A stretch of DNA of 64,000 bases. It comes from an uncultured Burkholderiales bacterium. GTDB lineage: Bacteria; Pseudomonadota; Gammaproteobacteria; Burkholderiales; Burkholderiaceae_C. The position numbers and the translations under genes were made by a program. The notes beneath the pieces were generated by a model. The model was not told the origin of the DNA. It searched no databases and saw only the letters and a list, made by a program, of their open reading frames with translations. Location of the stretch: the NCBI GenBank assembly GCA_903832625.1, contig CAILCI010000010.1:1-64000 (forward strand), written 5' to 3'. Of the stretch, positions 34,206 through 53,048 are shown in pieces; the stretch's first letter is position 1, and the number at the start of each line of letters is the position of its first letter.

Positions 34206-34206
34206 A

Positions 34207-35324: not shown

Positions 35325-35395
35325 ATGTTCGCATTCTGGTTCGCATTTGATTGAAAAGATGTGGTACTTACCCTGACTCGAACACATTCGAACAT
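35325..35395. promoter_or_regulatory. cluster of GlpR-type half-sites
   Basis: The glpS/glpR gap contains ATGTTCG (35325-35331), GGTTCGCAT (35338-35346), CGAACA (35379-35384) and TTCGAACAT (35387-35395). These match the halves of the palindromic DeoR-type GlpR operator, TGTTCG and CGAACA. They flank both promoters, so GlpR probably represses the ABC operon and itself. Confidence 0.6.
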
Positions 35396-35411
35396 GATTT
35401 ATTGTTATGAC

Positions 35412-36182: not shown

Positions 36183-36190
36183 TAAACCCC

Positions 36191-37684
36191 ATGAAATACC
36201 TCTTAGCCATCGACCAAGGAACTTCCAGCTCGCGCAGCATTGTGTTTGCGCCCGACGGCCACATCGTGGCGATGGCGCAGCGCGAGTTTGAACAAATCTT
36301 CCCCAACCCCGGCTGGGTCGAACACAACCCAATGGAGATTTGGAGCAGCCAACTCGCCACCATCCACGAGGTGTTGAAAAAAGCCAATCTGCAAGTGAGC
36401 GACTTGTTGGCCGCAGGCATCACCAACCAACGCGAAACCACCGTGGTGTGGCACCGTGAAACGGGTCAACCCATCTACAACGCCATTGTTTGGCAAGACC
36501 GACGGGCGGAAAACCAATGCATTGCCTTGCGCGAACAAGGCCATGCAGCAATGGTGCAACAAAAAACCGGCCTCATCATCGATGCCTATTTTTCAGGCAC
36601 CAAGCTGCAATGGATTTTGGATCACGTCCCCCATGCCCGTGATCTGGCCGAAGCCGGAAAACTCGCCTTTGGCACGGTGGACACCTGGCTGATTTGGCAA
36701 CTCACCCAAGGCCGTGTTCATGCCACCGATGTGAGCAACGCCTCGCGCACCATGCTCTTCAATGTGCACACCAACCAATGGGACGACGATTTGCTGGCTT
36801 TGCTGCGCATTCCAAAATCGCTCATGCCACACGTGCAGCCCTCTGCCAGTGACTTTGGTGCGATAGACGCCTCGTTCTTGGGCGCGAGTCTGCCCATTGG
36901 CGGCGTGGCCGGAGACCAACAAAGCGCTTTGTTTGGCCAAACCTGTTGGACGGCAGGACAAGCCAAAAACACCTATGGCACGGGCTGCTTTGCGCTCATG
37001 CACACCGGCACAAAATTCTTGACCAGCCAAAACGGTCTCATCACCACCAGCGCCGCGCAAACGGGCAGCACGCCTGAGTTTGCGCTGGAAGGCAGCGTCT
37101 TCATTGGCGGTGCGGTGGTGCAGTGGCTGCGCGACGGGCTGCACGCCTTCAAACACAGGGCTGAGGTGCAAGCGCTGGCGCAAAGCGCGGGCGACGCAGG
37201 CGGCGTGGTCATGGTGCCAGCCTTCACAGGCTTGGGTGCGCCGTATTGGAAGGCCGAAGCACGCGGCGCGATTGTGGGCATCACACGCGGCACCACCATG
37301 GCGCATTTGGCCTATGCCGCGCTAGAGAGTATTGCGTTTCAAAGCACGGCACTGCTCGAAGCCATGAGCCGCGACGCAGTGCAAAACGGCGGTTTGCCTG
37401 TGCAAGAACTGCGCGTCGATGGCGGTGCCTGCGCCAACGATTTGCTCATGCAAATGCAAGCCGATTTGCTGGGCATTCCCGTGGTGCGCCCTGCTGTGAT
37501 TGAAACCACGGCCTTGGGTGCAGCGTATTTAGCGGGCTTGCACTGTGGCCTGTATGCCGACCCACACGATTTGTCTGCGCAGTGGCGGGTTGAAAAACGC
37601 TTTGAACCCATCCTGTCGCGCGACCAAGCCCAACACAAAATGAATGCGTGGAATCACGCCGTTCGCCAAACCACTGCTGCTTAA
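36191..37684 (+). CDS. glpK: glycerol kinase
   Basis: Phosphorylates glycerol to glycerol-3-phosphate with ATP, trapping the imported compound. The 497 residues are the usual FGGY size. They start YLLAIDQGTSSSRSIVF and contain the glycerol-binding WRETGQ-type region TVVWHRETGQPIYNAIVWQD. The second FGGY signature stands near ALESIAFQSTALLEAM, with the metal and ATP residues in GVAGDQQSALFGQ. It follows glpR by 8 bases and is followed 7 bases later by a Gfo/Idh gene in the same operon. Confidence 0.95.
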   Translation: MKYLLAIDQGTSSSRSIVFAPDGHIVAMAQREFEQIFPNPGWVEHNPMEIWSSQLATIHEVLKKANLQVSDLLAAGITNQRETTVVWHRETGQPIYNAIVWQDRRAENQCIALREQGHAAMVQQKTGLIIDAYFSGTKLQWILDHVPHARDLAEAGKLAFGTVDTWLIWQLTQGRVHATDVSNASRTMLFNVHTNQWDDDLLALLRIPKSLMPHVQPSASDFGAIDASFLGASLPIGGVAGDQQSALFGQTCWTAGQAKNTYGTGCFALMHTGTKFLTSQNGLITTSAAQTGSTPEFALEGSVFIGGAVVQWLRDGLHAFKHRAEVQALAQSAGDAGGVVMVPAFTGLGAPYWKAEARGAIVGITRGTTMAHLAYAALESIAFQSTALLEAMSRDAVQNGGLPVQELRVDGGACANDLLMQMQADLLGIPVVRPAVIETTALGAAYLAGLHCGLYADPHDLSAQWRVEKRFEPILSRDQAQHKMNAWNHAVRQTTAA

Positions 37685-37691: not shown

Positions 37692-38816
37692 ATGAAAAAC
37701 ACTCGCTACGGATTCATCGGCTGCGGCATGATGGGTCAAGAACATTTGCGCAATATTGCACTGCTGCAACACGCAGTGGTCACCCGCATCTTCGAACCCG
37801 ATGACGCCATGGCCGAACTCAGCCTGACGTTTGCGCCGCAAGCCCGGCGCAGCGCATCCATGGACGAGGTGATCTTGGCCGACGACGTGGACTGCTTGGT
37901 CATCACCAGCCCCAACTTTCGACATGCCGAGCAAATCAAGCACATTGCCAGCTTGCGGCAAATTCCGGTGTTGCTGGAAAAACCCGCTTGCACCTCGATT
38001 GAGCAAGTCCGCGAATTGCAAGAACTCGCCAAGCACTACACCCAAGCCATTTGGGTGGCCATGGAATACCGCTACATGCCGCCGATTCAACGCTTGGTGG
38101 ACGAGGTGCACAGCCAAGTCAACACGGGCGCGGTCAATCTCATCAGCATTCGCGAGCACCGCTTTCCGTTTCTCACCAAAGTGGGCGACTGGAACCGCTT
38201 CAACCGCTACACAGGCGGCACCTTGGTGGAGAAATGCTGCCACTTCTTCGATTTGATGCGCTTGCTCACGCAAAGCGAAGCCACGCGCATTTATGCCTCG
38301 GCATCGGTGGCACACAACCATTTGGACGAACGCTACCCCGACGGCACGCCCGATATTTTGGACAACGCCTATGTGGTGGTGGACTTCGCCTCCGGCCAAC
38401 GCGCTGTGCTGGAGTTGTGCATGTTTGCCGAAGGTGCGCGTTACCAAGAAGAAATTTCTGTCGTTGGCCCCAAGGCCAAAGTCGAGTGCTTTGTGCCAGG
38501 GCCTGGCCGCTTTTGGCCCGCGCATTTGGGCGCAGCTCCAACGCCCTTGTTGGTGTTGAGCCCGCGTCACCCCAAAGGCCCCACCGAGCTAGAAGTGCCC
38601 GTCGATCCTGCGGCCTTGGCAGCAGGCGACCACAACGGTTCGACTTTCTACCAACACCAACGCTTTCAAGCCGTGGTCAATGGCACGGGCGGGCTGGAAG
38701 TGAGCCTGCACGACGGTTTGGCCGCTGTGCGCATGGGCTTGGCAGCACAAGAGTCGGCGCGCACTGGCCAAGCGATTGACATGCGAAGCGGGGTATTTTC
38801 TGCCTCCGGGCTGTAA
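37692..38816 (+). CDS. Gfo/Idh/MocA-family sugar oxidoreductase
   Basis: A 374-residue NAD(P)-dependent dehydrogenase. The N-terminal Rossmann part is YGFIGCGMMGQEHLRNIALL, followed by the conserved VLLEKPACTSIEQVREL (Lys of the EKP motif). The C-terminal barrel has YTGGTLVEKCCHFFDLMRLL with the catalytic histidine. The substrate is probably a free sugar or inositol-type compound. It is fused to the glycerol operon by a 7-base gap after glpK and precedes a sugar ABC operon by 102 bases, so it could serve either. Confidence 0.85.
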   Translation: MKNTRYGFIGCGMMGQEHLRNIALLQHAVVTRIFEPDDAMAELSLTFAPQARRSASMDEVILADDVDCLVITSPNFRHAEQIKHIASLRQIPVLLEKPACTSIEQVRELQELAKHYTQAIWVAMEYRYMPPIQRLVDEVHSQVNTGAVNLISIREHRFPFLTKVGDWNRFNRYTGGTLVEKCCHFFDLMRLLTQSEATRIYASASVAHNHLDERYPDGTPDILDNAYVVVDFASGQRAVLELCMFAEGARYQEEISVVGPKAKVECFVPGPGRFWPAHLGAAPTPLLVLSPRHPKGPTELEVPVDPAALAAGDHNGSTFYQHQRFQAVVNGTGGLEVSLHDGLAAVRMGLAAQESARTGQAIDMRSGVFSASGL

Positions 38817-38918: not shown

Positions 38919-40208
38919 ATGTTTAAAACTGAATCAATTTTGCAACGCCACGCTTTCAAAACCTTGGCTTTGGCCTTGATGGCTGCAGGCGCTGTGTCGG
39001 CTCAAGCACAAGAAGTGCGCGTCATGTGTTACCAAGACGGCGTAGAGTGCGACGTCACCGCCGAATTGGCCAAGAAGTTTGAAGCTCAAAACCCAGGCGT
39101 CAAAATTGTGGTGGACACCGTGCCCTACAAAACCATTGTTGAACAACTCCCCGTTCAACTCGCCGCAGGCCAAGGCCCTGACATTGCCCGCGTGACCGAT
39201 TTGGGTGGCTTGTCCAAGTTCTACATGGACATTTCCCCCAACCTCAAAGACCGCAAATACTTTGACACCCAATTTGGCAGCACCGCCGCATGGTTGCACA
39301 CCGATGCAAGCGACAAAGGCATTTACGGTTTCATGTCACAGCTCACCATGACTGGCCCCTATGTCAACAAAACTTTGTTTGACCAAGCCAAAGTCGCCCT
39401 GCCCGGCCCCAAAGCCACTTGGGACGATTGGGTAGCCGCCGCCAACAAAGTGGCCAAAGCCACACAAACCAAAGCCGCCATGGCGTGGGATCGTTCAGGC
39501 CACCGTTTTGCAGGCCCCGCCATCAGCAACGGCGCAGCGATTTTCGATGCCAAAGGCGATTTGGTCGTAGACGCCGGCTACAAAAACACCATCAGCAAAT
39601 TTGTCGGCTGGCACAAAGACGGCACCATGCTCAAAGAAGTGTGGTCAGGCTCAGGCGGCTCTACCTATGCCGACTCGATTGGCGAATTCATCAACGGCAA
39701 TGTGGTCATGGTTTTGTCGGGCTCATGGCAAATCAACCGCTTGCAAAAAGACATTGGCAACAAGTTCGATTGGGAAGCGGTGCCCAACCCCTGCGGCGCA
39801 GCCGCATGTACAGGCATTCCCGGTGGTGCCGCTTGGGTGGCTTTGAAAACCAGCAAATCACCCAAAGAAACCGCAGCCTTCTTGAACTTCATGGCGGCTG
39901 AGGCCAACTATGCCGACTTCATTGCCAAGACCAACAACATCCCTGCCCACGCAGGCTTGGCGAAAAAAGGCGTGAACTACACCAGCGCACAACCTGCAGC
40001 CAAAGCGGCTTTGGGCGTGTTCAGTGGCGGTGTGGCCAATTTGTCGCCCGTGGCCTACAAATTCCAAGGCTACAAATACAACCGCGCCATCATGTTGCCC
40101 ACCGTTTCGCGCGTGACGCAAGCCTTGGTCGGCGAATTGAGCGTGGACGAAGCCGTCAACAAACTCAACGCCGACATGCAAGACGCAGTCAAGCAAGCGC
40201 AAAAGTAA
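38919..40208 (+). CDS. CUT1 sugar ABC transporter substrate-binding protein
   Basis: A 429-residue periplasmic binding protein with a signal peptide ending near ALALMAAGAVSAQAQ. The mature part starts EVRVMCYQDGVECDVTAELA and includes PVQLAAGQGPDIARVTDL, VLSGSWQINRLQKDIG and PNPCGAAACTGIPGG. Two cysteine pairs suggest disulfides. A clear AAAGG ribosome site precedes the ATG. With the two permeases, the ATPase and a GH31 enzyme behind it, it is expected to bind an oligosaccharide or glucoside. Confidence 0.87.
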   Translation: MFKTESILQRHAFKTLALALMAAGAVSAQAQEVRVMCYQDGVECDVTAELAKKFEAQNPGVKIVVDTVPYKTIVEQLPVQLAAGQGPDIARVTDLGGLSKFYMDISPNLKDRKYFDTQFGSTAAWLHTDASDKGIYGFMSQLTMTGPYVNKTLFDQAKVALPGPKATWDDWVAAANKVAKATQTKAAMAWDRSGHRFAGPAISNGAAIFDAKGDLVVDAGYKNTISKFVGWHKDGTMLKEVWSGSGGSTYADSIGEFINGNVVMVLSGSWQINRLQKDIGNKFDWEAVPNPCGAAACTGIPGGAAWVALKTSKSPKETAAFLNFMAAEANYADFIAKTNNIPAHAGLAKKGVNYTSAQPAAKAALGVFSGGVANLSPVAYKFQGYKYNRAIMLPTVSRVTQALVGELSVDEAVNKLNADMQDAVKQAQK

Positions 40209-40217
40209 GCCTGCGCT

Positions 40218-41195
40218 GTGCGTTTTCTTGCTTTCTTTTTTAACCTCCTAGAACCCGTGTTTGCACTCAGCCAGAAATGGCTGGGGCAATCGCGGCTGGC
40301 TTGGTTGTTTGTCGGCCCCAATTTGTTGGTGTTTGGCCTGTTCACGTTTTTGCCCATTGTCATCAACGTGTTCTATGCCACATCGGCGGGCGTGGCCTTG
40401 ATGCCTGCCGATCGGCCTTTCAGCGGTTTAGAGAACTTCCAAACCCTGTTTGAATGCCGCGACTACTTTGACTTTCAAACCTGCCGCAAAGACGTGTTCT
40501 GGCGCGCCATTGGCAACACTTTGCAGTTCAGCGTGATTCAAGTCACGCTGATGGTCTTGTTTTCTTTGCTCACCGCCTTGGTGTTGAACCGCAAAATCAT
40601 CGGTCGCGGTTTTTGGCGCGGCGTGTTTTTCTACCCAGTTTTGCTGTCACCCGTGGTGGTGGCTTTGATTTGGAAATGGTTGCTGAAAAGCCAAGGCGTG
40701 TTCAATGCCGCGTTGGTGGCCATGGATCATCCGCCCATCGAGTGGTTGACCGACAGCCACTGGGCATTCTTTTGGACCATCTTTGTGTCGATTTGGGCGC
40801 ACATGGGTTTTTACACCCTTATTCTCTTGGCGGGCTTGCAAGCCATTCCCAAAGACGTGTATGAAGCTGCGCTGATGGACAAGGCCTCACCGTGGCGCAC
40901 CCTCACGCGCATCACCCTGCCCTTGCTCATGCCCAATTTGATTGTGGTGTTGGTGCTGGCCATGATTCGCGCCGTGCAGGTGTTTGACGAAGTGTTTGTG
41001 CTCACAGGCGGCGGCCCCGGCTCGGCCACGACCTTCATTGTTCAGTTCATTTACCAAACCGGTTTTGCAGAGCAAATTCACTTGTATGGTTTGGCGGCTG
41101 CGGCTTCTTTGGCGTTGGCCGTGGGCTTGATTGTGCTGACCTTGCTCCAACTCAAACTCACTCGCGCCAAAGACGCTGGACAAAAGGTGCGCTGA
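40218..41195 (+). CDS. sugar ABC transporter permease (MalF type)
   Basis: A 325-residue permease with six or seven helices. The coupling motif LAGLQAIPKDVYEAALMDKAS and the distal LTGGGPGSATTFIVQFIYQTG are present. The first periplasmic loop is long and carries a cysteine pair (FECRDYFDFQTCRKD). The GTG at 40218 is the start. It is 9 bases past the binding-protein gene. Confidence 0.87.
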   Translation: MRFLAFFFNLLEPVFALSQKWLGQSRLAWLFVGPNLLVFGLFTFLPIVINVFYATSAGVALMPADRPFSGLENFQTLFECRDYFDFQTCRKDVFWRAIGNTLQFSVIQVTLMVLFSLLTALVLNRKIIGRGFWRGVFFYPVLLSPVVVALIWKWLLKSQGVFNAALVAMDHPPIEWLTDSHWAFFWTIFVSIWAHMGFYTLILLAGLQAIPKDVYEAALMDKASPWRTLTRITLPLLMPNLIVVLVLAMIRAVQVFDEVFVLTGGGPGSATTFIVQFIYQTGFAEQIHLYGLAAAASLALAVGLIVLTLLQLKLTRAKDAGQKVR

Positions 41196-41196
41196 T

Positions 41197-42243
41197 ATGT
41201 TGTTGAAATTTCTCACCCGCACCCGCCATGCGCAACGCTTGGGTTGGACCGATGCGCTGAGCTACGCTTACCTCGTGGTCGGACTGTTCACCCTGTTCGC
41301 GCCTGTGCTGTGGCTGCTCATGTCGTCATTCAAAACCGAATCGGCGATTGGCGAATTTCCGCCCACTTTTTTGCCTTACACGCAACGCACTGTGCAGGTG
41401 GACAACTACCCCCAGCCCTTGCCCCTGTTCCATGTGACTTTGGATGACGGACAAGTCAAACCCATGGCGCAAGTCAGCCGCATTGGCATCATGGCGACCA
41501 TGGTGGATCCGGAGCATCCGCAAGAAACGGTGCAGGTCAAACTGCTGCAACGCCAGCCTGTGCGCGAGCTCAAATTCGCCTTCAACAACTACACCGAGTT
41601 GTTTGGCAAATTTGCCTTTGGCACGTATTTATTCAACAGCGTGTTCATCACGGTGGTGGCCACGGTGCTGACCTTGCTCTTCAATTCGATGGCGGCTTTT
41701 GCGCTCTCCAAATACAAGTTCACTGGGCAAAAAACGGTGTTCTTGCTCATCATCGCGACCTTGATGATTCCGCCCACCATCGTCTTGGTGCCCATCTTTT
41801 TGGTGATCAACTCGGTGGGCTTGCTCAACAGCTTGTGGGGCGTGATCTTGCCCGCAGTGGCCACGCCCACGGGTGTGTTTTTGCTGCGCCAATACATGCT
41901 CACCATCCCGGACGAGTTGCTCGAAGCCGCCCGCATGGACCACGCCAGCGAATGGCGTATTTACTGGCGCATCGTGCTGCCGCTGAGCGCGCCGGCTTTG
42001 GCGGTGCTGGCCATTTTCTCGGTCATGTGGCGCTGGAATGATTTCTTGCTGCCCTTGATCGTGCTCTCCAAATCGGAGTTTTTCACCTTGCAATTGGCTT
42101 TGAATTCTTTCCAAGGTGAGCTCAACACCCAATGGCATTACTTGCTGGCCATGACCGTCATCACCTTGCTGCCTGTGACCTTGGTGTTTGCTTTCTTGCA
42201 GCGCTACATCACCACCGGCATTGCCAGTGCGGGTGTCAAATAA
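41197..42243 (+). CDS. sugar ABC transporter permease with periplasmic insertion (MalG type)
   Basis: A 348-residue permease. Between the first helix (YAYLVVGLFTLFAPVLWLLM) and the transport core is an insertion of about 80 residues (positions 50-130). It contains QVDNYPQPLPLFHVTLDDGQ and VKLLQRQPVRELKFAFNN, and predicts a folded periplasmic domain. The coupling motif TIPDELLEAARMDHASEWRI is regular. One base separates it from the previous stop. Confidence 0.86.
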   Translation: MLLKFLTRTRHAQRLGWTDALSYAYLVVGLFTLFAPVLWLLMSSFKTESAIGEFPPTFLPYTQRTVQVDNYPQPLPLFHVTLDDGQVKPMAQVSRIGIMATMVDPEHPQETVQVKLLQRQPVRELKFAFNNYTELFGKFAFGTYLFNSVFITVVATVLTLLFNSMAAFALSKYKFTGQKTVFLLIIATLMIPPTIVLVPIFLVINSVGLLNSLWGVILPAVATPTGVFLLRQYMLTIPDELLEAARMDHASEWRIYWRIVLPLSAPALAVLAIFSVMWRWNDFLLPLIVLSKSEFFTLQLALNSFQGELNTQWHYLLAMTVITLLPVTLVFAFLQRYITTGIASAGVK

Positions 42244-42256
42244 CTGAGGATTTTTT

Positions 42257-43291
42257 GTGTCCACGCTAGAACTTCACGCCACCACCAAATCATTTGGCAA
42301 CACCCATGTCATCCCAGCGCTTGACTTGCAGGTCAAGCACGGTGAATTCATGGTGTTTGTCGGACCTTCGGGTTGCGGCAAATCCACCCTGCTGCGCATG
42401 ATTGCGGGTTTGGAAGACACCACTTCCGGTGAGATTCGCATTGACGGCCAAGTGGTCAACACCGTGTCTGCGGCAGACCGTGGCTGTGCCATGGTGTTTC
42501 AGTCTTATGCCTTGTATCCGCACATGAGCGTCTACGCCAACATGGCGTTTGGCTTGGAAAACATGGGCTTGAAAAAAGATCTCATCACGCAAAAAGTCAA
42601 CGAAGCCGCCAAGTTGCTGCGCTTGGACAGCTTGCTGGACAGACGCCCCACGCAACTCTCAGGCGGGCAACGCCAGCGCGTGGCGATTGGCCGCGCGATT
42701 GTGCGCGAGCCGAAAATTTTTCTGTTCGACGAACCCCTCTCCAACCTCGACGCCGAGTTGCGCGTGTCCATGCGCAGCGAGTTGCGCGAGTTGCACCAAC
42801 GCTTGGGCGCGACCATGATTTATGTCACCCACGACCAAGTCGAGGCCATGACATTGGCCGACCGCATTGTGGTGCTGCGTCAAGGACGCATCGAACAAGT
42901 CGGCACACCACAAGCCCTGTACGAGCGCCCCGCCAACACCTTTGTGGCCGGCTTCATTGGCAGCCCGCGCATGAACTTCATTCCGGTCCAGAGCTTGTCT
43001 ACGCAAGCAACGCACAGTTTTGCGCCACAACACGCGCATGAAATTGGCATTCGCCCAGAACACCTGAGCGTATGTGGCGAGCACGAAGGATTGGCCGTGA
43101 CGGTGAAGAACACCGAATACATGGGTTCACAAACCTTGGTGCAAGGCGTCTTGGCCGACGGCACCAAAGTCGAAGCCTTGCTGCAAGACACCGCGCCGCC
43201 TGCTGTGAATTCCACGTTGCATCTCAACACCACTTTGGCACACATTCATCGCTTTGATGCCCAAGGACTCGCCCTAGGAAACACACCATGA
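42257..43291 (+). CDS. sugar ABC transporter ATPase (MsmK/UgpC type)
   Basis: A 344-residue CUT1 ATPase. Walker [14 protein letters not shown], the Q-loop in [11 protein letters not shown], the signature [17 protein letters not shown], Walker [17 protein letters not shown] and the switch histidine in [13 protein letters not shown] are all intact. The tail contains [13 protein letters not shown] and [10 protein letters not shown], a regulatory OB-like domain. The GTG at 42257 has GAGGA upstream. Its stop overlaps the GH31 start by 4 bases. Confidence 0.9.
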
Positions 43292-45429
43292 CGCCTTGGA
43301 GCGCCACCCAATGGATCCCTCACGCGCAAGGCGCGGACATCCGTTTGCAACAACACGGCCAGATGCGCTTGCGTTTTTTGAGCGACAGCATGGCTCGGGT
43401 GACGGTCAAGCCTGCCACAGGCTACCGTGAGCCCCATACCTGGGCAATTTCACCTTTAAGCACTGCCTCAGAAAACTCCGAAGCTCCGTGGCAAGGTCGT
43501 AGCCGAGACGACTTGTCGGGCTTTGCTACGCCTACCGTGCAGCATCAGCAACACGAGGCGCTGCAAACACTCTCCACAGCCAAGCTGCGCGTGGAATTGC
43601 ACACCCAGCCGCTGCGCTTGGTTTGGCACTGGTTGGATACGCCTGAGCCCCGTGTGGTGGTATCTGACCGCTGGACCAGCGCCTACCTGAGCGACAAGCG
43701 CACAGGCTCGGTACGCCACTACATTCAGCGCGACGACGCCGAAAAGTTTTATGGCTTGGGCGACAAGACCGGACGCTTGAACCTCAGCGGTCGGCGCTTG
43801 CGTACGCTGGCCATGGATTCGCTGGGCTACGACCCCGAACACGGCGACCCGCTCTACAAACACTGGCCTTTTGTCTTGAGCCGCACACCGCAAGGCCAAT
43901 GGGTGGGCATTTATTACGACACCTTGGCCGCTTGCACCTTTGACTTTGGTTGCGAGCACGATAACTACCACGACTTCTACCGCTACGTCGATATTGACGA
44001 CGGCGACCTCGACTACTACCTCATGGTGGGCAACTCGCCCGCTGAGGTCATTGCGCAGTTCATGCAACTCATAGGCGGCACGCACTTGCCCCCGCGTTGG
44101 AGTTTGGGCTACGCACAGACGGCGATGGGCTTGGCCGATTCGCCCGACGCGCAAACGCAGCTCTCCAAGTTCATTGATTTGACGCAGCAGCACAAAGTGC
44201 CTGTGTCGGCCTTTCATTACGGCTCGGGGTACTCCACGCGCGGCAAGCGCCGCTATGTGTTCACTTGGAACCACGACAAATTTCCTGATCCCAAGACGCT
44301 GAATCAAAAATTTCAAGACCACGGCATGCACTTGGTGGCCAACATCAAGCCATGTTTGTTGGACGACCATCCTGCCTTTGAGCAACATGTCAAGGCTGGA
44401 ACTTTCATCCAAGACACAGCTCAACAACCCGTGGTTGAGCCTTATTGGGACGGCCAAGGCGCGCATTTGGATTTCACCAACCCGCTAGCCGTTGCTTGGT
44501 GGCAAAGCCAACTCAAAGCGCAAATCTTGGACTACGGCATTGACGCGGGTTGGAATGACAACAACGAATATGCCATCCTCAACGAAGACGCGCAATCCAA
44601 TGGCTGGGGCAGTGCCACGCCCATGCACCGTTCTAGGCCGCTGCACGCGCTCTTGATGACCCGCGCCACCTTCGAAGCGCAAGCCCAGGCCTTGGGACGC
44701 GAACAGGTGTTCACCGTCACCCGCGCTGGGCCACCCGGCATTCAACGCTATGCGCAAACTTGGTCGGGTGACAACACCACCAGTTGGCGCACGCTGAAAT
44801 GGAACATTCGCACTGGCTTGCAAATGAGCTTGTCGGGCATGTTCAACGTCGGCCACGATGTGGGCGGTTTTTACGGCCCCCTGCCCGATGCCGAGTTGTT
44901 TTTGCGCTGGGTGCAAGCCAGTTGCCTCAACCCACGCATGGTGATGAACTCATGGAAAGCAGGCAATGTCAGCAACCTGCCGTGGATGCACCCCGAGGTG
45001 AAAAACGAAGTCGTCGCGGCCATCCAATTGCGCTACACCTTGATGCCCTATTTGTGGCAACTGTTCGAGCGTGCTTCCTCACACCACGAGCCGATCATCC
45101 GTCCCACGTTCTACGACTTTGCCGACGACGCGCAATGCTTTGAAGACAGTGACGACTTCATGCTGGGCGCTTGGCTCTTGGTCGCACCTGTGGTGCAAGC
45201 CGGACAAACCCAACGCGAGGTGTATTTGCCGCAACTCAAAGCCGGAGAAGCTTGGTTTGACTTTGAAACCGGCCAACGCTTTGAAGCGGGCAAGACACAC
45301 ACCGTTGCCGCGCCTTTGAACAAACTGCCATTGTTTGCCCGTCAAGGCGCGGTCATTGAATGTGCTGCGCCACAAGTCGGCAGTGTGGCCAAGTTTGATG
45401 ATCCGGTGACAACAACGCGCCAGTTTTAA
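43288..45429 (+). CDS. GH31 family glycosidase (alpha-glucosidase-like)
   Basis: A 713-residue cytoplasmic enzyme (no signal peptide) of glycoside hydrolase family 31. The likely nucleophile is Asp424 in [10 protein letters not shown] and the acid/base Asp495 in [10 protein letters not shown]. Upstream is [19 protein letters not shown] (309-327) followed by [15 protein letters not shown]. In known sulfoquinovosidases this position carries a QDWxGxR-type motif that binds the sulfonate; it is absent here. So an alpha-glucosidase or related specificity is more likely, though the neighbouring sulfonate genes leave the question open. It is the last gene of the sugar ABC operon. Confidence 0.85.
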
Positions 45430-45463: not shown

Positions 45464-45940
45464 TCACACCAAGCTGCTGGCCATCTGCCCAAATTTGCTT
45501 TGCGCAAACAGCAAAGGCGATTGATCGCTCCAGCCAAAGTGCTGGACTTCGCCCAACAAAATATCGTGGTCACCCGCCGAGACCACTTGCACCAAGCTGC
45601 AATCAAACCAAGCCAAGGCTTGGTTGAGCTTCAAGCGGCCTGAATCCAAGCGCTGCATGTCCACGCCTGCAAATCGTTCGTCCAAGCTGCCTTTGGCGAA
45701 TTGAAGCGCCAGGGCTTCTTGGTCGGCTGTCAACACATTGACGGTGTACCCCGCGCCTTGGGTAAAGGCCACATGGCTGTTGGCATTTTTACGAATGCTC
45801 CACAGCACCATGCGCGGCTCAAGCGACACCGAAGCGAACGAGTTGCATGTCATGCCCCAATCGGTCTGTTCGTGCTGCGTGGTGACCACCGTCACCCCCG
45901 TGGCGAAGCAAGACAAGGCGTTGCGGTATTCGCGACTCAT
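45464..45940 (-). CDS. smoA: flavin reductase, SmoA-like partner of the monooxygenase
   Basis: A 158-residue NAD(P)H:flavin oxidoreductase of the flavin reductase-like domain family. It shows CFATGVTVVTT, CNSFASVSLEPRMVLWSI for flavin contact and SAGDHDILLGEVQ for the dimer edge. It would supply reduced FMN to the class II monooxygenase encoded two genes upstream. The start overlaps the stop of the aldo-keto reductase gene by 4 bases. The symbol follows the sulfoquinovose oxidative desulfonation pathway and is an assignment by context. Confidence 0.82.
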   Translation of the reverse strand: MSREYRNALSCFATGVTVVTTQHEQTDWGMTCNSFASVSLEPRMVLWSIRKNANSHVAFTQGAGYTVNVLTADQEALALQFAKGSLDERFAGVDMQRLDSGRLKLNQALAWFDCSLVQVVSAGDHDILLGEVQHFGWSDQSPLLFAQSKFGQMASSLV

Positions 45941-46842
45941 GGCACTTCGGCGCCTTGCGCCAACTCATAGAGTTCAAACCAAGTTTGACGGTCGAGCTTG
46001 ACCTCAAAGGCTTTGTGAAAAGCTTGAATGCGCGACAAATCATTTGTGCCCATCACAGGCAAGACTTGCGCGGGATGGTGCAGCAACCACGCAATGGCGA
46101 TGGCAGTTTCGTCCACACCGTGGGCTTGCGCCAAGGCTTTGAGTTTGGCTGATAAACGCAGTGCGGCGGGCTCTTGGCTCCACAAACGGCCCCCCCCCAA
46201 AGGCGACCAAGCCATGACAGGCTGGCGGTGCTGTTGAGCTTGCGCCATTTGGCCGTTGGTCAAGGGCGCAGTAGCCATCAGGCTGAGTTCAATTTGATTG
46301 GTGACCAAGCGGTGTTTCATGCACGACTGCAACAAGTCCATGTCCCAAGGCATGAAGTTGGAGACGCCTGCTGCGCGAATTTTTCCGGCGTCAATCAAAG
46401 CATCCAAACACGCGCCCAAGGCCTGTGCGTCCATCAGCGGATCAGGGCGGTGGATGAGCAAAACATCGATCACCTCCACGCCGATGCGTTGCAGCGAACG
46501 CTCCACACTGGCGCTGACGTGTGCGGGCGTGGTGTCGTAATGTTTGACGCGGGTGGTCGGCCACTGTTGGGACAACAACATGATGTCGGTCTTGGTGACG
46601 ATTTGCATCTTGGCTTTGAGCGCTGGATGCGCGCGCAAGGTATCGCCAAACAAGCTTTCACAGCGGTAGTCACCATAAATGTCGGCATGGTCAAACGTGG
46701 TGATGCCTTGGTCTAAGCAAGCCTGAATGCGCCCAGCAACGGCATTGGGCGAGGTATCGGCGGCTTCGGACAAGCGCCACACGCCATAGGCCATGCGGCT
46801 CAAAGAAATTTCTTTAGACAAGGCAATAGAAGGAACATTCAT
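45937..46842 (-). CDS. smoB: aldo-keto reductase, SmoB-like (6-oxo-glucose reductase)
   Basis: A 301-residue AKR barrel enzyme. The expected catalytic tetrad maps to Asp51 and Tyr56 (FDHADIYG), Lys84 (IVTKTDI) and His131 (LLIHRPDPL). Several stretches agree closely with the Agrobacterium SmoB sequence as I recall it: RVKHYDTTPAHVSASVE, GVSNFMPWDMDLLQS and MAWSPLGGGRLW. SmoB reduces 6-oxo-glucose, made from sulfoquinovose, to glucose. The start overlaps the monooxygenase stop and the stop overlaps smoA. A run of nine G codes for part of LGGGR. Confidence 0.85.
   Translation of the reverse strand: MNVPSIALSKEISLSRMAYGVWRLSEAADTSPNAVAGRIQACLDQGITTFDHADIYGDYRCESLFGDTLRAHPALKAKMQIVTKTDIMLLSQQWPTTRVKHYDTTPAHVSASVERSLQRIGVEVIDVLLIHRPDPLMDAQALGACLDALIDAGKIRAAGVSNFMPWDMDLLQSCMKHRLVTNQIELSLMATAPLTNGQMAQAQQHRQPVMAWSPLGGGRLWSQEPAALRLSAKLKALAQAHGVDETAIAIAWLLHHPAQVLPVMGTNDLSRIQAFHKAFEVKLDRQTWFELYELAQGAEVP
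46190..46198. repeat. nine-base homopolymer inside the aldo-keto reductase gene
   Basis: Nine C residues on the plus strand (nine G in the coding strand) encode the glycines of PLGGGR. The frame is intact as given. Tracts of this length are prone to slippage, and none as long was noticed elsewhere in the window's genes. Confidence 0.6.
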
Positions 46843-47996
46843 CGACGGACTCCAACGCCCAAAGGCGTCGCGGGGGTTTGAGAGGGAACGCGCCCATATT
46901 CTTGGGCGAGCGAACAGGTGGTGAGCTGTGGCAAGACTTTGGTGCCAAAGATTTCACATTCTTGCAGATGGGGATAGCCCGAGAAGATGAAGGCGCGAAT
47001 CCCCATTTTTTGGTAGTCATGGATTTCGCTCAACACCTGATCGACACTGCCCACCAAGGCGGCACCGCAGCCGCTACGGGCGCGGCCAACGCCGGTCCAC
47101 ATGTGCGGCTCGATGTAGCCTTCGTCGTCGGCGAGTTCGCGGTTTTTGGCTTGATGCGCCACGCCCAAACTCACAGCGTCTAAAGCGCGTTGGCGAATTT
47201 CTCGGCCTTTTTCGTCGTCGAGTTGGGACACCAGTTCACGCGCGTATTCACGCGCCTCGGCCTCGGTGTCGCGCACAATCATGTGGATGCGCAAGCCGTA
47301 GTCGAGCACGCGATTGTGTTTGGCGGCGCGGGCGTGAACGTCTTTCATGCGTTGCGCCAAGACGTCTTTGGTTTCGGGCCACATCAAATACGTGTCGCAA
47401 TGCGCACCGCACAATTCCAGTGCGTCGGGGCTGTAGCCACCGAAGTACAACAAGGGACCGCCGTTGGTTTGGTAGGGGCGCACCGGGTCGGTGGTCAAAC
47501 CTTTGAATTTGTAAATTTCGCCGTCGTAGTTGATCTCGTCTTGCGTCCAAGCTTGTTTCAAAATTTCCACCACTTCCCACGAACGGCGGTAACGGTAAGC
47601 GCTGTCTTCGACTTGACCCGGGAAGTCGGAAGAAATCACGTTCAAGGTCAATCGGCCTTTGAGCATGTGATCGAGCGTGGCCACGGTGCGCGCCAACATG
47701 ATGGGATGCAGCTCGCCACAACGGATGGCGGCCAGCAAATTCATGCGTGAGGTGAGAGGCGCCAAGCCTGCGGCAAACGTCAGAGTGTCTTGCCCGACTT
47801 GATAAGACGAAGGACACAAAATATTGCGAAAGCCCAGCTCTTCAGCACGCAGCGCAATTTTGCTGGTGTTTTCCCAACTGCTGCGGTATTGACCTTCAGG
47901 CACACCCAAATGCCCAAAATCGTCCGAGCACAAGGGCGCGAACCAAGCCACTTCTGCGCCTTTTACATCTTCACCGCGAACGGGTACTACGCTCAT
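46839..47996 (-). CDS. smoC: SsuD-like FMNH2-dependent monooxygenase, probable sulfoquinovose monooxygenase
   Basis: A 385-residue LLM-type (class II) flavin monooxygenase closely built like alkanesulfonate monooxygenase SsuD. Sulfonate-binding residues match: Arg236 and His238 (YGLRIHMIVRD), Arg307 (WTGVGRARSG) and Tyr341 (SGYPHLQE). The SsuD cysteine in GRSCEDAW is replaced (SSYQVGQD). It uses O2 and reduced flavin to cut a C-S bond, releasing sulfite and an aldehyde. Partner genes point to sulfoquinovose: an AKR instead of taurine-like genes, and a CUT1 sugar importer instead of SsuABC. The ATG at 47996 has a GGAG site; a candidate operator lies just upstream. Confidence 0.82.
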   Translation of the reverse strand: MSVVPVRGEDVKGAEVAWFAPLCSDDFGHLGVPEGQYRSSWENTSKIALRAEELGFRNILCPSSYQVGQDTLTFAAGLAPLTSRMNLLAAIRCGELHPIMLARTVATLDHMLKGRLTLNVISSDFPGQVEDSAYRYRRSWEVVEILKQAWTQDEINYDGEIYKFKGLTTDPVRPYQTNGGPLLYFGGYSPDALELCGAHCDTYLMWPETKDVLAQRMKDVHARAAKHNRVLDYGLRIHMIVRDTEAEAREYARELVSQLDDEKGREIRQRALDAVSLGVAHQAKNRELADDEGYIEPHMWTGVGRARSGCGAALVGSVDQVLSEIHDYQKMGIRAFIFSGYPHLQECEIFGTKVLPQLTTCSLAQEYGRVPSQTPATPLGVGVRR

Positions 47997-48021
47997 GATG
48001 TCATCTCCAAATTTAAGAATG

Positions 48022-48040
48022 AATGAATAGTATATGAATT
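48022..48040. promoter_or_regulatory. candidate GntR operator between the monooxygenase and GntR genes
   Basis: AATGAATAGTATATGAATT is an imperfect palindrome (AATNNATA halves around one central base). It lies between the divergent monooxygenase and GntR starts (26 and 38 bases away). Similar 19-base sites are found at 15194-15212 and 52902-52920. Confidence 0.6.
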
Positions 48041-48077
48041 TTAAGCCTTCGGCAAAATTTTTTGTCATACTTGGGAC

Positions 48078-48800
48078 ATGAAAACCCTCGCCCCCGCCCA
48101 GCCACTGCCAAAGTTTTTGCAAATCTCAGAGTTGTTGAGCCGTCAAATTCGTGCTGGCCACTTTCGCACTGGCGAGCGCTTGCCCACGGAAGCTGAATTA
48201 GCGCAATCATTGGATGTGGCCGTCGGAACGCTGCGCAAAGCCTTGGACGTTCTAGAAAAACAACAAGTCATTGAGCGCATTCAAGGCTCGGGCACTTATG
48301 TGCGCAGCGGCAACACAGGCAAAAGCATTTACGAGTTTTTCAGGCTAGAGCTGCACGATGGCCCCGGCATGCCCAGCGCCCACATCTTGAGCGTGGACAA
48401 GCTGGAGCGACCCCAGGATGTTCCGACATTCGGCGCAGATGCCAAGCCCCAAAGCGCATGGCGCGTGCGACGCTTGCGATTTTTGAATCAAACCCCCGTG
48501 GCTCTCGAGGAGATTTGGTTTGATGCCAAACACACCCGTCAACTCAAAGCCTCACAGCTGGGTGAGTCCATGTATTTGTTCTACCAACAAAACTTCCAAC
48601 TCTGGATCAGCCGCGTGGAAGACCACATCTACGCCCAAGATGTTCCCACGTGGACAGTACCCGAGTTTGGCGTGAAAGCCAAAAAAACCACAGGCTACAT
48701 CGAGCGTTTATCGTGGACAGCGAACAACGAGTTGGCAGAGTTTTCTAAAACTTGGTTTGATGCCAAGCTGTGTCGGTATTCTTCGCGATTGAGTCAATGA
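48078..48800 (+). CDS. GntR-family regulator (HutC/UTRA type) of the sulfonate-sugar cluster
   Basis: A 240-residue regulator. The winged helix reads KFLQISELLSRQIRAGHFRTGERLPTEAELAQ in continuous segments (residues 12-43), followed by VAVGTLRKALDVLEKQQVIERIQGSGTYVR. The C-terminal UTRA ligand domain starts at about residue 80 and ends SWTANNELAEFSKTWFDAKL. It is divergent from the monooxygenase operon and convergent with the second ABC operon (3-base gap to the permease stop). No clear Shine-Dalgarno precedes the ATG. The likely effector is a sugar of this pathway. Confidence 0.88.
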   Translation: MKTLAPAQPLPKFLQISELLSRQIRAGHFRTGERLPTEAELAQSLDVAVGTLRKALDVLEKQQVIERIQGSGTYVRSGNTGKSIYEFFRLELHDGPGMPSAHILSVDKLERPQDVPTFGADAKPQSAWRVRRLRFLNQTPVALEEIWFDAKHTRQLKASQLGESMYLFYQQNFQLWISRVEDHIYAQDVPTWTVPEFGVKAKKTTGYIERLSWTANNELAEFSKTWFDAKLCRYSSRLSQ

Positions 48801-48803
48801 AAC

Positions 48804-49634
48804 TCAACCCTTCAAGCCACCTTGCGTCAACCCACCAATCACCCGTTCCTGAAAAAACACAATCAACAGCGCCACAGGAATCACCGTCACCACCAAGGCT
48901 GCGCTGATGACTGGCCAGGGAAACGTAAATTCACCTTGGTACATGGCAATCCCCACAGGCGCGGTGCGCATGGCGGCGGCTGAGTTGAGCGACAAAGCCA
49001 GCAAGAACTCATCCCACGCATTCACAAACGCCAAGATGCCCGCAGTGAACACACCCGGCGCAGCCAACGGCAACACGATGCGCCACAAGGCGCCTACGCG
49101 CGAGCACCCGTCAATCATGGCTGCGTTTTCCAAATCACGCGGAATGCTTTGGAAAAAACTCACCAGCACCAAGGTGCACACAGGCATGTTGATGACGGTG
49201 TAAGGAATGACCAGCGCCGTATAAGTGTTGAGCAAATTCAGGCTGCGCATGGTCTCAAAAATCGGTACCAAGAGCGTGATGATGGGGAACATGCTGCTCG
49301 CCACAATCGCAGTCAACACCCATTGACGGCGACGCAAATTCAAACGTGCAATCGCATAGGCCGCGCAGGTCGCCACAAACAAAGAGGTCAGGGTTGACAC
49401 ACTGGCGACGATCAGGCTGTTGCTCAAATAACGCAACAAGGGCTGGGTGGTGAATGCGCCCACATAGTGTTCGAACGTGGCATGTTGCGGCCACCAAGTG
49501 ATGGGCTTGGCCACCAGTTCAGACTCGGCTTTGAAAGAGGTCAGCACCATCCACAAAAGCGGGAAAAAACCGTTCACCATTAGCCAAGCTGCAGCCAACC
49601 AACGCAAACGTGCCGAAGTCCACAGGTTCTTCAT
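48804..49634 (-). CDS. sugar ABC transporter permease (MalG type), second system
   Basis: A 276-residue permease with the coupling motif SFFQSIPRDLENAAMIDGCSR and the six-helix CUT1 pattern. It starts inside the end of the other permease gene (4-base overlap). Together they form the channel of the importer next to the GntR gene. It is the last gene of the operon and meets the GntR gene end to end. Confidence 0.88.
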   Translation of the reverse strand: MKNLWTSARLRWLAAAWLMVNGFFPLLWMVLTSFKAESELVAKPITWWPQHATFEHYVGAFTTQPLLRYLSNSLIVASVSTLTSLFVATCAAYAIARLNLRRRQWVLTAIVASSMFPIITLLVPIFETMRSLNLLNTYTALVIPYTVINMPVCTLVLVSFFQSIPRDLENAAMIDGCSRVGALWRIVLPLAAPGVFTAGILAFVNAWDEFLLALSLNSAAAMRTAPVGIAMYQGEFTFPWPVISAALVVTVIPVALLIVFFQERVIGGLTQGGLKG

Positions 49635-50494
49635 GCGGCCCGCCCCACATGCTTCAAATACACACCCGTCACCAACAAGGACATGACAAACATCAACACC
49701 GCCAAGGTCGAGCCATAGCCCAAGTCCAAATAATCGACCGTGGTTTTGTGGATCAACATGGCCAAGGTTTGGGTGGCGCTGCCCGGCCCTCCTTTGGTCA
49801 TGGTGTAGGGAATGTCAAAGGTTTGCAAGGCGGTCAGTGTTCTAAAAATCAAGGCCACCACCATGCTGGGCACCAGCAAGGGCAAGGTGATTTGCCAAAA
49901 CTGTTGCCAAGGTGTTGCTCCATCGACCTCGGCGGCTTCGTACAAAGAGCGCGGAATCATTTGCAAACCCGCCAACAAAATGAGCGCCATGAACGAGCTG
50001 GTCTTCCAGATGATGGTCAAACAAATCGCAGCAAACGCCCATCCGGGACGCAGCAGCCACATGGTCGGTTCCTGCAAGCCTGCCATGCGCAACACATCGT
50101 TGACGATGCCGTAATCGGTATGGAAAAACCACGCAAAAATCAAGCCGCAAAAACTCAGTGGCAAAGCCCACGGCAAGAGCAAGGCCAGTCGCACGGGCCA
50201 TTTACGCTTGAAAGGCAAGTTGGCCAACATCGCAAACGCCAAGCCCACCAACAAAGCCCCCGGCACGGTGATGAGCGTGATGCCCAGCGTGTTGAACATG
50301 GCTTCCCAAAACTCTTTGTCTTGCAAGGCGTCGGCATAGTTTTGCCAGCCCACAAAGCCCGTGCTTTGAAAAAAGCTGTTGTAGATCAGCTTGCCCACCG
50401 GATAGACCACCACCAACGCAATCAAAGCGAACGCTGGCGTGAGCAAGAGCCACGCCAGCGTTTTTTCAGAAGGATCGCGCCAAGTGCTTTTCAT
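49631..50494 (-). CDS. sugar ABC transporter permease (MalF type), second system
   Basis: A 287-residue permease. The coupling motif AGLQMIPRSLYEAAEVDGAT and the distal TKGGPGSATQTLAMLIHKTTV are regular. It starts 8 bases after the binding-protein stop. In context, it is part of the importer that probably feeds the monooxygenase pathway. Confidence 0.88.
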   Translation of the reverse strand: MKSTWRDPSEKTLAWLLLTPAFALIALVVVYPVGKLIYNSFFQSTGFVGWQNYADALQDKEFWEAMFNTLGITLITVPGALLVGLAFAMLANLPFKRKWPVRLALLLPWALPLSFCGLIFAWFFHTDYGIVNDVLRMAGLQEPTMWLLRPGWAFAAICLTIIWKTSSFMALILLAGLQMIPRSLYEAAEVDGATPWQQFWQITLPLLVPSMVVALIFRTLTALQTFDIPYTMTKGGPGSATQTLAMLIHKTTVDYLDLGYGSTLAVLMFVMSLLVTGVYLKHVGRAA

Positions 50495-50502
50495 CGCGGC
50501 AA

Positions 50503-51783
50503 TCAGCGCATCACGCGGCCTAAGCGGCCTTCGATGTCAGACACCGCATCGGCAGGCGTTTTGGTGCGTGCCAAGGCTGCGCTGGTGTTGGTGCGCACCA
50601 CGTCGCTGACTTGTCCATATTGGCTGCTGATGGGGCGCGCTTGCCCGTTGATGATGACGTTGGCCGCATCTTTGAACCAAGGCGCTTGCTTGAGCACATC
50701 GGCCTCGGTGTAGACGCTTTGGTAAACCGGCAGCAAAGAACCCTCCACCGCCAAGAATTTGCTGGCCTCCGGCGTGCTCATGTATTTGATGAGGTTGGCC
50801 GCAGCCGATTTGTTTTTGCTGAACGCACTCAGCGCCCATTGCCAGCCACCCACACAGGTTGCGCTCTTGCCACCCGTCATGGCGGGCAGCGGCATGACGC
50901 CAACTTTGCCTTTGACTTGGCTGTCAGGTGCGTCTTTGAACACATCCCACGCAAAGCCCCAGTTGATGGCGAACAAGACTTGTCCAGCTTTGAATTCATT
51001 GACTGTCACAGGTGTGGTGACTTCGGCAATGTTTTTCTTCATCACGCCCGTGTCCACCAAATTGAGCCACATGTTGAGGCCTTTGACTGCGGCGTCTTTG
51101 TCCAAAGTCAGCTTGCCGGAAGCATCGTTGAACTGTTTGCCTTGGCTCCAATAAGGCAGCAAGAAAGTGCAAACCGCGCCTTCAATCGGCGCGCCTTGAA
51201 TGCTCAAGCCCTGCAAGTTGGGGTTCTTCTCAGCGTCCAGCACTTTTTTGCTGGCTGCGGCCAACTCGTCCCACGTGTGCGGTTCTTTGATGCCGTATTT
51301 GTCCAACAAGTCTTTGCGGTAGTACATGAACATGGCGTCTGAAAACGCGGGCATGGCTGCGAGTTTGCCGTTGACCACATCGGCCTGCGCATACACAGGC
51401 AAATAGGGTTTGAGCGCACTCACGCCACCGGGGATATAGCTGTCCAAAGGCTCCAACCAACCCGCATTGAAATACTGCGCGGGGTTGACGATGTCGATCA
51501 TGTAGATGTCAATCGCGGAATCTTTGGCGTTGAGCACGGTGCTCAGATATTGGCGCTGCAACTCGCTGGTGGCACCGCCCGTTTCAAGCTCAATGGTGAC
51601 ACCGGGGTTTTGCGCTTGGTACTTGTCAAACAGCTTGCGCATCAAGTCTGGGCGTTGGTTTTGCCCACCCGAAAAAACACGCAGCTTGGTGTCAGCCCAA
51701 GCGCTGTGGCCAGCAAATGCGGCGCATACCAGCAAAGAACCCGCTAAGCGCGCCAAGTGGCGAATGGTTTGTTTGTTTTGCAT
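50503..51783 (-). CDS. sugar ABC transporter substrate-binding protein, second system
   Basis: A 426-residue periplasmic protein with a signal peptide (LAGSLLVCAAFAGHSAWA). The mature domain starts DTKLRVFSGGQNQRPDLMRK and includes GGATSELQRQYLSTVLNAK, IYMIDIVNPAQYFNAGWLEP and SAFSKNKSAAANLIKYMSTP. It belongs to the CUT1 type that takes disaccharides and glycosides. By analogy with SmoF of Agrobacterium it is the best candidate for binding sulfoquinovosyl glycerol, though I could not verify sulfonate contacts. Confidence 0.86.
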   Translation of the reverse strand: MQNKQTIRHLARLAGSLLVCAAFAGHSAWADTKLRVFSGGQNQRPDLMRKLFDKYQAQNPGVTIELETGGATSELQRQYLSTVLNAKDSAIDIYMIDIVNPAQYFNAGWLEPLDSYIPGGVSALKPYLPVYAQADVVNGKLAAMPAFSDAMFMYYRKDLLDKYGIKEPHTWDELAAASKKVLDAEKNPNLQGLSIQGAPIEGAVCTFLLPYWSQGKQFNDASGKLTLDKDAAVKGLNMWLNLVDTGVMKKNIAEVTTPVTVNEFKAGQVLFAINWGFAWDVFKDAPDSQVKGKVGVMPLPAMTGGKSATCVGGWQWALSAFSKNKSAAANLIKYMSTPEASKFLAVEGSLLPVYQSVYTEADVLKQAPWFKDAANVIINGQARPISSQYGQVSDVVRTNTSAALARTKTPADAVSDIEGRLGRVMR

Positions 51784-51822
51784 CTTCGACTCCTCGTTGA
51801 ATGGACATGAATCTTCAAAAAA

Positions 51823-52896
51823 TCACAGTGCCAGCGTGCTGTGTGCATCAAAAAAATGCAGGTGCTGGTGTGAGACGTACAGCTTGACAAGAGCGTCAAT
51901 CGGCGCTTTGAACTCAGCAGGCAAACGCGCAACCAACTCCACATCACCTAAGGCAAAAGTCACCAAAGTTTCTGCACCCAAGGGTTCGAGCAGCGCCACG
52001 CGGGTTTGCAATACCGCATCGGTTGCTGATTGTGCTTGCAGGTGCAAATTTTCAGGCCGAATGCCCACTGTGATGGCGCTGGCCGCAGCGCAGCGCTTGG
52101 CCTGTTCCGAGCTGATGGCGAGGCTTTGTTGCGCCAGCACAAGGCTCTCGCCCTGCAAGTGTGCAGGCAACAAATTCATCGGCGGCGAGCCAATGAAGCC
52201 CGCCACAAACAAATTGGCTGGATGCTTATAGATGACTTCGGGCGTGTCGAACTGCACCACGCGCCCGCCTTGCATGATGGCAATGCGGTCGGCCAGCGTC
52301 ATGGCCTCCACCTGGTCGTGCGTGACATACACAATGGTCGCGCCCAAACGGTGGTGCAGCTTCTTGATTTCACTGCGCATTTCGTCGCGCATTTGCGCGT
52401 CCAAGTTGGAGAGCGGTTCGTCAAACAAAAACACTTGGGGCTGGCGCACAATGGCGCGCCCAATCGCCACCCGCTGGCGCTGTCCGCCCGACAAAGCCGC
52501 AGGCTTGCGCCCTAGCAAATGCTCGATCTTGAGCAACTTGGCCGCGTCGTTGACGCGCTGCGCAATCTCAGCCTCGGGCATTTTGCGCAAGCGCAGGCCA
52601 AAGGCCATGTTTTCAAACAGTGTTTTGTGGGGATACAGCGCATAGTCTTGAAACACCATGGCAATGTCGCGTGATCTTGGCGGCAAGTCGTTGACCCGCG
52701 TTTCGCCAATCGTGATGTCGCCCCCCGTCACGCTCTCTAGCCCCGCCAGCATGCGCAGCAGCGTGGACTTGCCACAGCCTGACGGTCCGACCAGCACAAC
52801 AAATTCACCATCGGCCACATCCACGTCAATGCCGTGCAAGACGGTGTTTAAACCGTCATAACTTTTACTGACGTTGCGAAGTGATACGTGCGCCAT
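51823..52896 (-). CDS. sugar ABC transporter ATPase, second system, operon head
   Basis: A 357-residue CUT1 ATPase with Walker [14 protein letters not shown], signature [17 protein letters not shown], Walker [17 protein letters not shown] and switch His in [11 protein letters not shown]. The C-terminal regulatory domain has GFIGSPPMNLLPA and VGIRPENLHL. The ATG at 52896 starts MAHVSLRNVSKSYDG, the family norm. The candidate GntR operator ends only 5 bases before it, so the leader is very short or absent. Confidence 0.9.
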   Translation of the reverse strand: MAHVSLRNVSKSYDGLNTVLHGIDVDVADGEFVVLVGPSGCGKSTLLRMLAGLESVTGGDITIGETRVNDLPPRSRDIAMVFQDYALYPHKTLFENMAFGLRLRKMPEAEIAQRVNDAAKLLKIEHLLGRKPAALSGGQRQRVAIGRAIVRQPQVFLFDEPLSNLDAQMRDEMRSEIKKLHHRLGATIVYVTHDQVEAMTLADRIAIMQGGRVVQFDTPEVIYKHPANLFVAGFIGSPPMNLLPAHLQGESLVLAQQSLAISSEQAKRCAAASAITVGIRPENLHLQAQSATDAVLQTRVALLEPLGAETLVTFALGDVELVARLPAEFKAPIDALVKLYVSHQHLHFFDAHSTLAL

Positions 52897-52901
52897 TAAT
52901 G

Positions 52902-52920
52902 TATTAATAGTGAATGAATT
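52902..52920. promoter_or_regulatory. candidate GntR operator before the second sugar ABC operon
   Basis: TATTAATAGTGAATGAATT agrees with the site at 48022-48040 at 15 of 19 positions. It sits 5 bases upstream of the ATPase start, where a bound repressor would block transcription. Confidence 0.5.
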
Positions 52921-53048
52921 ACAAAACGATGGCAGAGCATAACGCATCACCATCGTGAATTTTGCGCTTTTTTTGCTTTTGTCACTGCATTGACATAGGG
53001 GTTTATTCCAATGCACTGATATTTGTTCAACCTACTTGAGGAGTTGCC

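Follow-up and report, generated by a model that had tools for sequence, protein, structure and literature searches.

Which compound is broken down through the sugar and sulfonate genes that an uncultured Burkholderiales bacterium carries side by side on one of its contigs? The window, that is, the whole stretch of DNA analysed here, comprises bases 1-64000 of a 78-kb contig (CAILCI010000010.1) from a genome of 2.62 Mb that is 99.8% complete. A sequence-only reading had proposed an oxidative sulfoquinovose (SQ) cluster of the sulfo-SMO type at 45464..52896. We found the genes of this cluster to be as described, but its extent had been drawn too narrowly: the locus reaches well outside and includes a sulfoquinovosidase that the earlier reader did not see. 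Taken together, our results indicate that this is very probably an oxidative sulfo-SMO (= sulfo-ASMO) SQ locus, which would act on sulfoquinovosyl glycerol (SQGro).

The smo genes and the SmoF-type importer

The following genes make up the previously proposed cluster.
45464..45940, minus strand: SmoA-like flavin reductase (Pfam Flavin_Reduct)
45937..46842, minus strand: SmoB-like aldo-keto reductase (Pfam Aldo_ket_red; best PDB match 7bby/7bbz, E 1e-103)
46839..47996, minus strand: predicted SmoC-like sulfoquinovose monooxygenase (Pfam Bac_luciferase; 7olf, E 3e-198; tree)
48078..48800, plus strand: GntR/UTRA regulator (Pfam GntR and UTRA), divergent from smoC
48804..49634, minus strand: importer permease (BPD_transp_1)
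49631..50494, minus strand: importer permease (BPD_transp_1)
50503..51783, minus strand: predicted SmoF-like SQGro-binding protein (SBP_bac_1; 7nbz SmoF, E 1e-138)
51823..52896, minus strand: importer ATPase, UgpC-type (ABC_tran), with its ATG at 52896

Open reading frames (ORFs) and Pfam domains confirmed the layout of three enzyme genes with overlaps of 4 bases each (smoA/smoB and smoB/smoC), a divergent gntR and a four-gene importer. A dedicated flavin reductase, as expected of sulfo-SMO, is encoded at 45464-45940 between smoB and a convergent GH31 gene, and smoB and smoC, for which a published search requires a common 10-ORF window (PMC13372026, excerpt), are adjacent. The monooxygenase ORF was listed from a TTG at 48122; since the 7olf alignment starts only at residue 43, smoC probably begins at the ATG at 47996.

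The best matches to 7olf, 7bby/7bbz and SmoF 7nbz support the sulfo-SMO type at the level of sequence. Among PDB chains, SmoC matched 7olf and 7oh2 (E 3e-198 and 1e-195) far more closely than alkanesulfonate monooxygenases (5e-59 and weaker), with 285/384 identical residues (74%) to 7olf versus 117/365 (32%) to Escherichia coli SsuD. Its score with the curated SsuD model was 239 bits against a cut-off of 518, which places it outside SsuD. No second relative was found in its own genome at E 0.001. In a quick maximum-likelihood tree of 82 rows (81 SmoC-like proteins and E. coli SsuD), the window protein grouped with two proteins from metagenome-assembled genomes (Shimodaira-Hasegawa-like approximate likelihood ratio test, SH-aLRT, 95). 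This group falls within a betaproteobacterial set made up mostly of Comamonadaceae; the proteins of other Comamonadaceae, of rhizobia and of roseobacters branched further out, and SsuD was a remote outgroup. The clustering with alkanesulfonate enzymes that had been named as the outcome to refute the proposal thus did not occur. The residues put forward earlier as SsuD sulfonate residues (R236, H238, R307, Y341) are indeed present, as is W206, but they lose their force as evidence for SmoC: E. coli SsuD has all five at the aligned positions, and they thus identify a sulfonate monooxygenase without telling SmoC and SsuD apart. The recurrence of smoC, smoB and gntR together in most of 80 named loci, with gntR adjoining smoC in 70, argues that the gene set is more than chance.

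For the importer, the best PDB match of the binding protein was SmoF 7nbz (so named in the PDB), with 207/396 identical residues (52%), which makes this the SmoF-type SQGro importer expected of sulfo-SMO. The smo locus of Agrobacterium albertimagni (L089 12763-15721) shows another solution: a DctQ-DctM-DctP tripartite ATP-independent periplasmic (TRAP) transporter follows smoA, then a PF03601 membrane protein, and the locus has no SmoF-type ATP-binding cassette (ABC) importer. A large ORF at 53049-54638, divergent from the importer operon, matched no NCBIfam model at 1e-40; by eye it resembles a PhoD phosphatase.

A predicted GH188 sulfoquinovosidase behind glycerol kinase

At lower coordinates than the smo genes lie a predicted sulfoquinovosidase and genes of glycerol use.
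37692..38816, plus strand: predicted GH188 NAD-dependent sulfoquinovosidase SqgA (8zn9 and 8qc2/8qc3 matches; eight ligand residues)
36158..37684, plus strand: glycerol kinase GlpK (TIGR01311, above cut-off)
35361..36182, plus strand: GlpR-like DeoR regulator (PRK10906, E 2e-83, below curated cut-off)
27670..29232, minus strand: glycerol-3-phosphate dehydrogenase GlpD (PRK12266, E 3e-94, below curated cut-off)
29296..35286, minus strand: ABC importer, a probable glycerol transporter next to the glp genes (ORFs and ATPase families)

The product of ORF 37692-38816 matched 8zn9 (1e-142) and the GH188 structures 8qc3/8qc2 (1e-112) in the PDB, with the next family at 6e-15; 8QC2 is a GH188 crystal structure (PMC11465081). 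The published GH188 ligand residues, in ArSqgA numbering, are K107, Y136, R166, L170, K172, E189, H193 and H321, of which R166, L170 and K172 bind the sulfonate (PMC10755693, excerpt). Our alignment revealed that all eight are kept in the window's SqgA. Sulfo-SMO calls for a GH31 or GH188 sulfoquinovosidase, and here the GH188 protein would fill that place.

We scored SmoC at E 1e-60 in the genus genomes (n=84) and at E 1e-120 in the family genomes (n=399), and SqgA relatives at E 1e-60 in the latter. SmoC was found in 13/399 family genomes and SqgA relatives in 39; the 12 with 59-100% identity belong without exception to SmoC-positive genomes, and the 27 with 38-43% to SmoC-negative ones. SqgA of at least 59% identity was thus present in 12/13 SmoC-positive versus 0/386 SmoC-negative genomes (Fisher 5e-22, kinship ignored). 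In the genus, all nine SmoC-positive genomes (9/84) carry SqgA. Among the 20 SmoC-positive genomes of genus and family combined, 19 have SqgA, in 15 on the same contig within 20 kb of smoC and in four (G061, G318, G385, G444) on another contig; it was not found in G245, a genome 70% complete.

The glpK gene stops 7 bp upstream of sqgA. The same order recurs in G052/L010 and G061/L111, and in other arrangements glpD, glpR or glpK lies beside sqgA (G029/L108, L048, L034, L037, L041, L070). In total, glp genes adjoin sqgA in 6/80 named loci and 2/17 sqgA-centred regions, plus the window. Because glycerol genes adjoin sqgA in several loci and in more than one arrangement, SQGro is the likely substrate of the locus. 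None of the families matched by the 29296..35286 importer names a substrate; we presume it to be GlpVPQST-like. In a close relative (G061), glpK-sqgA-importer-GH31 (contig C10) and smoABC-gntR (C20) stand on different contigs, so the corresponding halves in the window might also be separable. Another close relative (G052/L010; genome 85% complete) has smoC, smoB, sqgA, glpK, the second importer and GH31 in its locus; smoA and the SmoF-type importer are absent there.

A second importer and a GH31 enzyme

Between sqgA and the smo genes sit two further features.
38919..43291, plus strand: second CUT1 sugar importer (binding protein, two permeases, ATPase; ORFs and families)
43288..45429, plus strand: GH31 glycosidase, not YihQ-type (Pfam; pocket residues)

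Both catalytic aspartates of YihQ are conserved in the GH31 enzyme. However, Q262, Q288, R301, W304 and Y508 of YihQ, which we take to be the sulfonate-pocket positions, are A, A, R, Y and F here, and the R301 position, kept in the window, is Q in 10/15 relatives. We therefore rejected this enzyme as the sulfoquinovosidase of the locus. Among the family genomes, GH31 homologues (E 1e-150) occur in 28/399 and the binding protein of the second importer in 21/399, the latter in 9/13 SmoC-positive versus 12/386 SmoC-negative genomes (Fisher 3e-10, kinship ignored). A strict SQ specificity of the pair was likewise rejected, as both occur in SmoC-negative genomes. Four genomes that are 97-100% complete and lack the SmoF-type protein (G029, G084, G192, G237) have the second importer within the smo locus, where it may carry SQGro. 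In the SmoC-negative G105 and G213 (2/12 such loci), the module stands beside glp genes, which gives a hint of a glycosyl-glycerol substrate. In G286 (L132), a copy of this importer has one of the 38-43% SqgA relatives upstream of it.

A conserved 23-bp box before smoC

We further observed a direct-repeat box in two copies.
48019..48041, minus strand: 23-bp direct-repeat box before smoC, candidate GntR operator (37.9 bits)
52899..52921, minus strand: second copy, 2 nt before the ATPase start codon (21.1 bits)

For scoring, we built a matrix from the boxes found upstream of smoC in 29 loci (betaproteobacterial, plus one record named only Pseudomonadota), leaving the window out of this training set. 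The next best score in the 64 kb was 8.7 bits. The box precedes smoC in 75/80 relatives' loci; leave-one-out scores were at least 27.9 bits in 29/29 training loci, and 46/51 untrained loci reached 11 bits, compared with 0/1600 control stretches away from these promoters. Pairwise identity was 0.85 in the box versus 0.44 and 0.39 in its flanks. Among 38 of the loci from L050 on (alpha- and gammaproteobacterial with some Comamonadaceae), the majority form is AAATTGATACACTATTGATCTAC. When the complete genome of the window was searched with a pattern designed around the two copies, these were the sole mismatch-free matches, and two more appeared at 3 mismatches. A search for inverted repeats as the operator led nowhere; the conserved element is the direct repeat.

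The box also stands before other operons: the SmoF-type importer in L013, L014, L017, L024, L030, L032, L033, L034, L037, L041, L044 and L113, sqgA in L026, L032, L035, L043 and L113, and the second importer in L020, L021, L023, L025 and L112 (the last two from one genome), L043 and L118. Before the second importer, the score never exceeded 0.3 in 12/12 SmoC-negative loci, nor in 4/4 SmoC-positive genomes with this importer away from smo.

Proposed pathway

We infer the following scheme of substrates, products and regulation from the gene identities, residues, co-occurrence and box conservation. The SmoF-type importer would take up SQGro or SQ, and SqgA would cleave SQGro to SQ and glycerol, the glycerol being channelled to GlpK and GlpD. 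With reduced flavin provided by SmoA, SmoC would oxidise SQ to 6-dehydroglucose and sulfite, and the SmoB-like aldo-keto reductase, judged by its sequence, would reduce 6-dehydroglucose to glucose for a glucokinase, which is present elsewhere in the genome. The most likely regulator of smoCBA and of the importer is the GntR protein, acting via the 23-bp box, whereas sqgA, here without a box, is probably under glycerol control. The enzyme activities and the link to algal sulfolipid drawn by the sequence-only reading are likewise inferences.

Several observations speak against this proposal or parts of it. The PDB names of 7olf/7oh2 and 7bby/7bbz, which we take to be SmoC and SmoB structures, are generic. 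The SmoF-type importer is not universal, as its binding protein is found in 9 of the 20 SmoC-positive genomes and missing from 11. A glp gene next to sqgA is missing from most of the named loci, many of which end too early to tell; the 27 SqgA relatives from SmoC-negative genomes are counted as another subfamily by their identity; and the co-occurrence tests ignored kinship. As for the box, no copy precedes the second importer in the window or in 8/14 distinct smo-linked loci, and the copy before the window's SmoF-type importer is imperfect and 2 nt from the start codon, compared with about 40-50 nt in relatives. Five of 80 loci have no smoC box, all without an adjacent gntR, and five have the box without an adjacent gntR. 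Moreover, no sulfite dehydrogenase of the SorA kind was found in the genome, whose sole PF00174 protein is MsrP.

Alternative readings

Could the monooxygenase be a sulfur scavenger of the alkanesulfonate or methanesulfonate type, with incidental sugar-gene neighbours? Its active-site residues are common to SsuD and its closest PDB chain bears the name methanesulfonate sulfonatase; yet its identity to 7olf, its low SsuD score, its separation from SsuD in the tree and the linkage of its gene to those of SmoB, SmoF and SqgA make such a role highly improbable, and we rejected an SsuD or methanesulfonate function on identity, tree and neighbours. Also unlikely is a reading of the box as part of the core promoter of smoC and not as a GntR operator. 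The box ends 18-22 nt before smoC in 28/29 training loci and contains TATACT, a -10-like hexamer, but its conservation spans 23 nt as a direct repeat, it precedes operons other than that of smoC, and an adjacent gntR is missing in 5/5 box-less versus 5/75 box-bearing loci (Fisher 1e-5), the five box-less loci representing about three lineages only.

A somewhat less improbable, still doubtful, alternative is that the second importer and GH31 take part in SQ use, the importer carrying SQGro and GH31 being an alternative sulfoquinovosidase. The enrichment of the importer with SmoC, its place in the smo locus of the four genomes without a SmoF-type protein and the box before it in 6/14 distinct smo-linked loci are consistent with this, but against it stand its 12 SmoC-negative genomes, all without the box, the absence of a box in the other smo-linked loci and in the window, and the four replaced pocket residues of GH31 with the variable R301; the importer half is likelier than the GH31 half. 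Tentatively, and with a little more weight, 27.7-53 kb may be viewed as one island for phototroph glycerol glycosides, serving free glycerol (ABC importer, GlpK, GlpD), a glycosyl glycerol that carries no sulfonate, for example glucosyl- or galactosylglycerol (second importer and GH31), and SQGro (SmoF importer, SqgA, SmoABC). The SmoC-negative G105 has glpK-glpR-glpD-importer-GH31 without sqgA, and G029 repeats this order with sqgA placed after glpD and before the importer, so SqgA might have joined a pre-existing glp-importer-GH31 locus; the box-read GntR regulon would then have taken in the second importer in only some of the relatives.

Comparison with known systems

Loci of this kind have been described before; our literature searches turned up no published account of the coupling to glycerol genes or of the control box. 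A betaproteobacterial sulfo-SMO locus, as proposed earlier, holds at the sequence level but is not new, since reviews place sulfo-ASMO mainly or largely in alpha- and beta-proteobacteria (PMC12890257, PMC9594981, excerpts), and GH188 genes are described in sulfo-SMO clusters (PMC10755693, excerpt). Literature searches found no work on sulfoquinovose in Limnohabitans, none on this pathway under sulfoquinovose, GntR and operator (judged by title), and only PMC11968277 joining sulfoquinovosidase and glycerol kinase. A 2026 13C-SQ study reported labelled Comamonadaceae and Burkholderiaceae after SQ feeding; it reported no canonical SQ cluster for the labelled Burkholderiaceae and, in its excerpt, does not list Comamonadaceae among sulfo-SMO taxa (PMC13372026). 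Such loci also occur in cultured relatives (Limnohabitans planktonicus II-D5, Limnohabitans sp. B9-3 and L. lacus HM2-2) and permit a direct test of whether lake bacteria of this kind are themselves degraders of plant and algal sulfolipid. From the coupling to glycerol genes, SQGro is the indicated substrate; the box defines a testable regulon and could help to locate additional SQ genes across alpha-, beta- and gammaproteobacteria.

SsuEADCB shares two-component FMNH2 (reduced flavin mononucleotide) monooxygenase chemistry and the sulfonate residues with the window, but it has another importer type and no sugar enzymes, and its monooxygenase is only 32% identical. The sulfo-SFT cluster of Eubacterium rectale likewise has glycerol kinase next to SQ genes, and the kinase was already proposed there to act on SQGro-derived glycerol; it differs in its pathway, its anaerobic host and its GH31 sulfoquinovosidase (PMC11968277, excerpt). 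The GH188 SqgAs of Arthrobacter and Flavobacterium, which also occur in sulfo-SMO clusters of Roseobacter, are alike in fold family, NAD-binding domain and the eight ligand residues (PMC10755693, excerpt), whereas the window's sqgA lies directly behind glycerol kinase in a betaproteobacterial host. The sulfo-SMO of Agrobacterium tumefaciens and Novosphingobium aromaticivorans shares SmoA, SmoB, SmoC, GntR and a SmoF-type importer with the window. In contrast to A. tumefaciens, which has a GH31 sulfoquinovosidase (PMC9594981, excerpt), the window carries GH188 in a glycerol kinase operon, and compared with both it has in between another CUT1 importer and a GH31 enzyme that is no sulfoquinovosidase.

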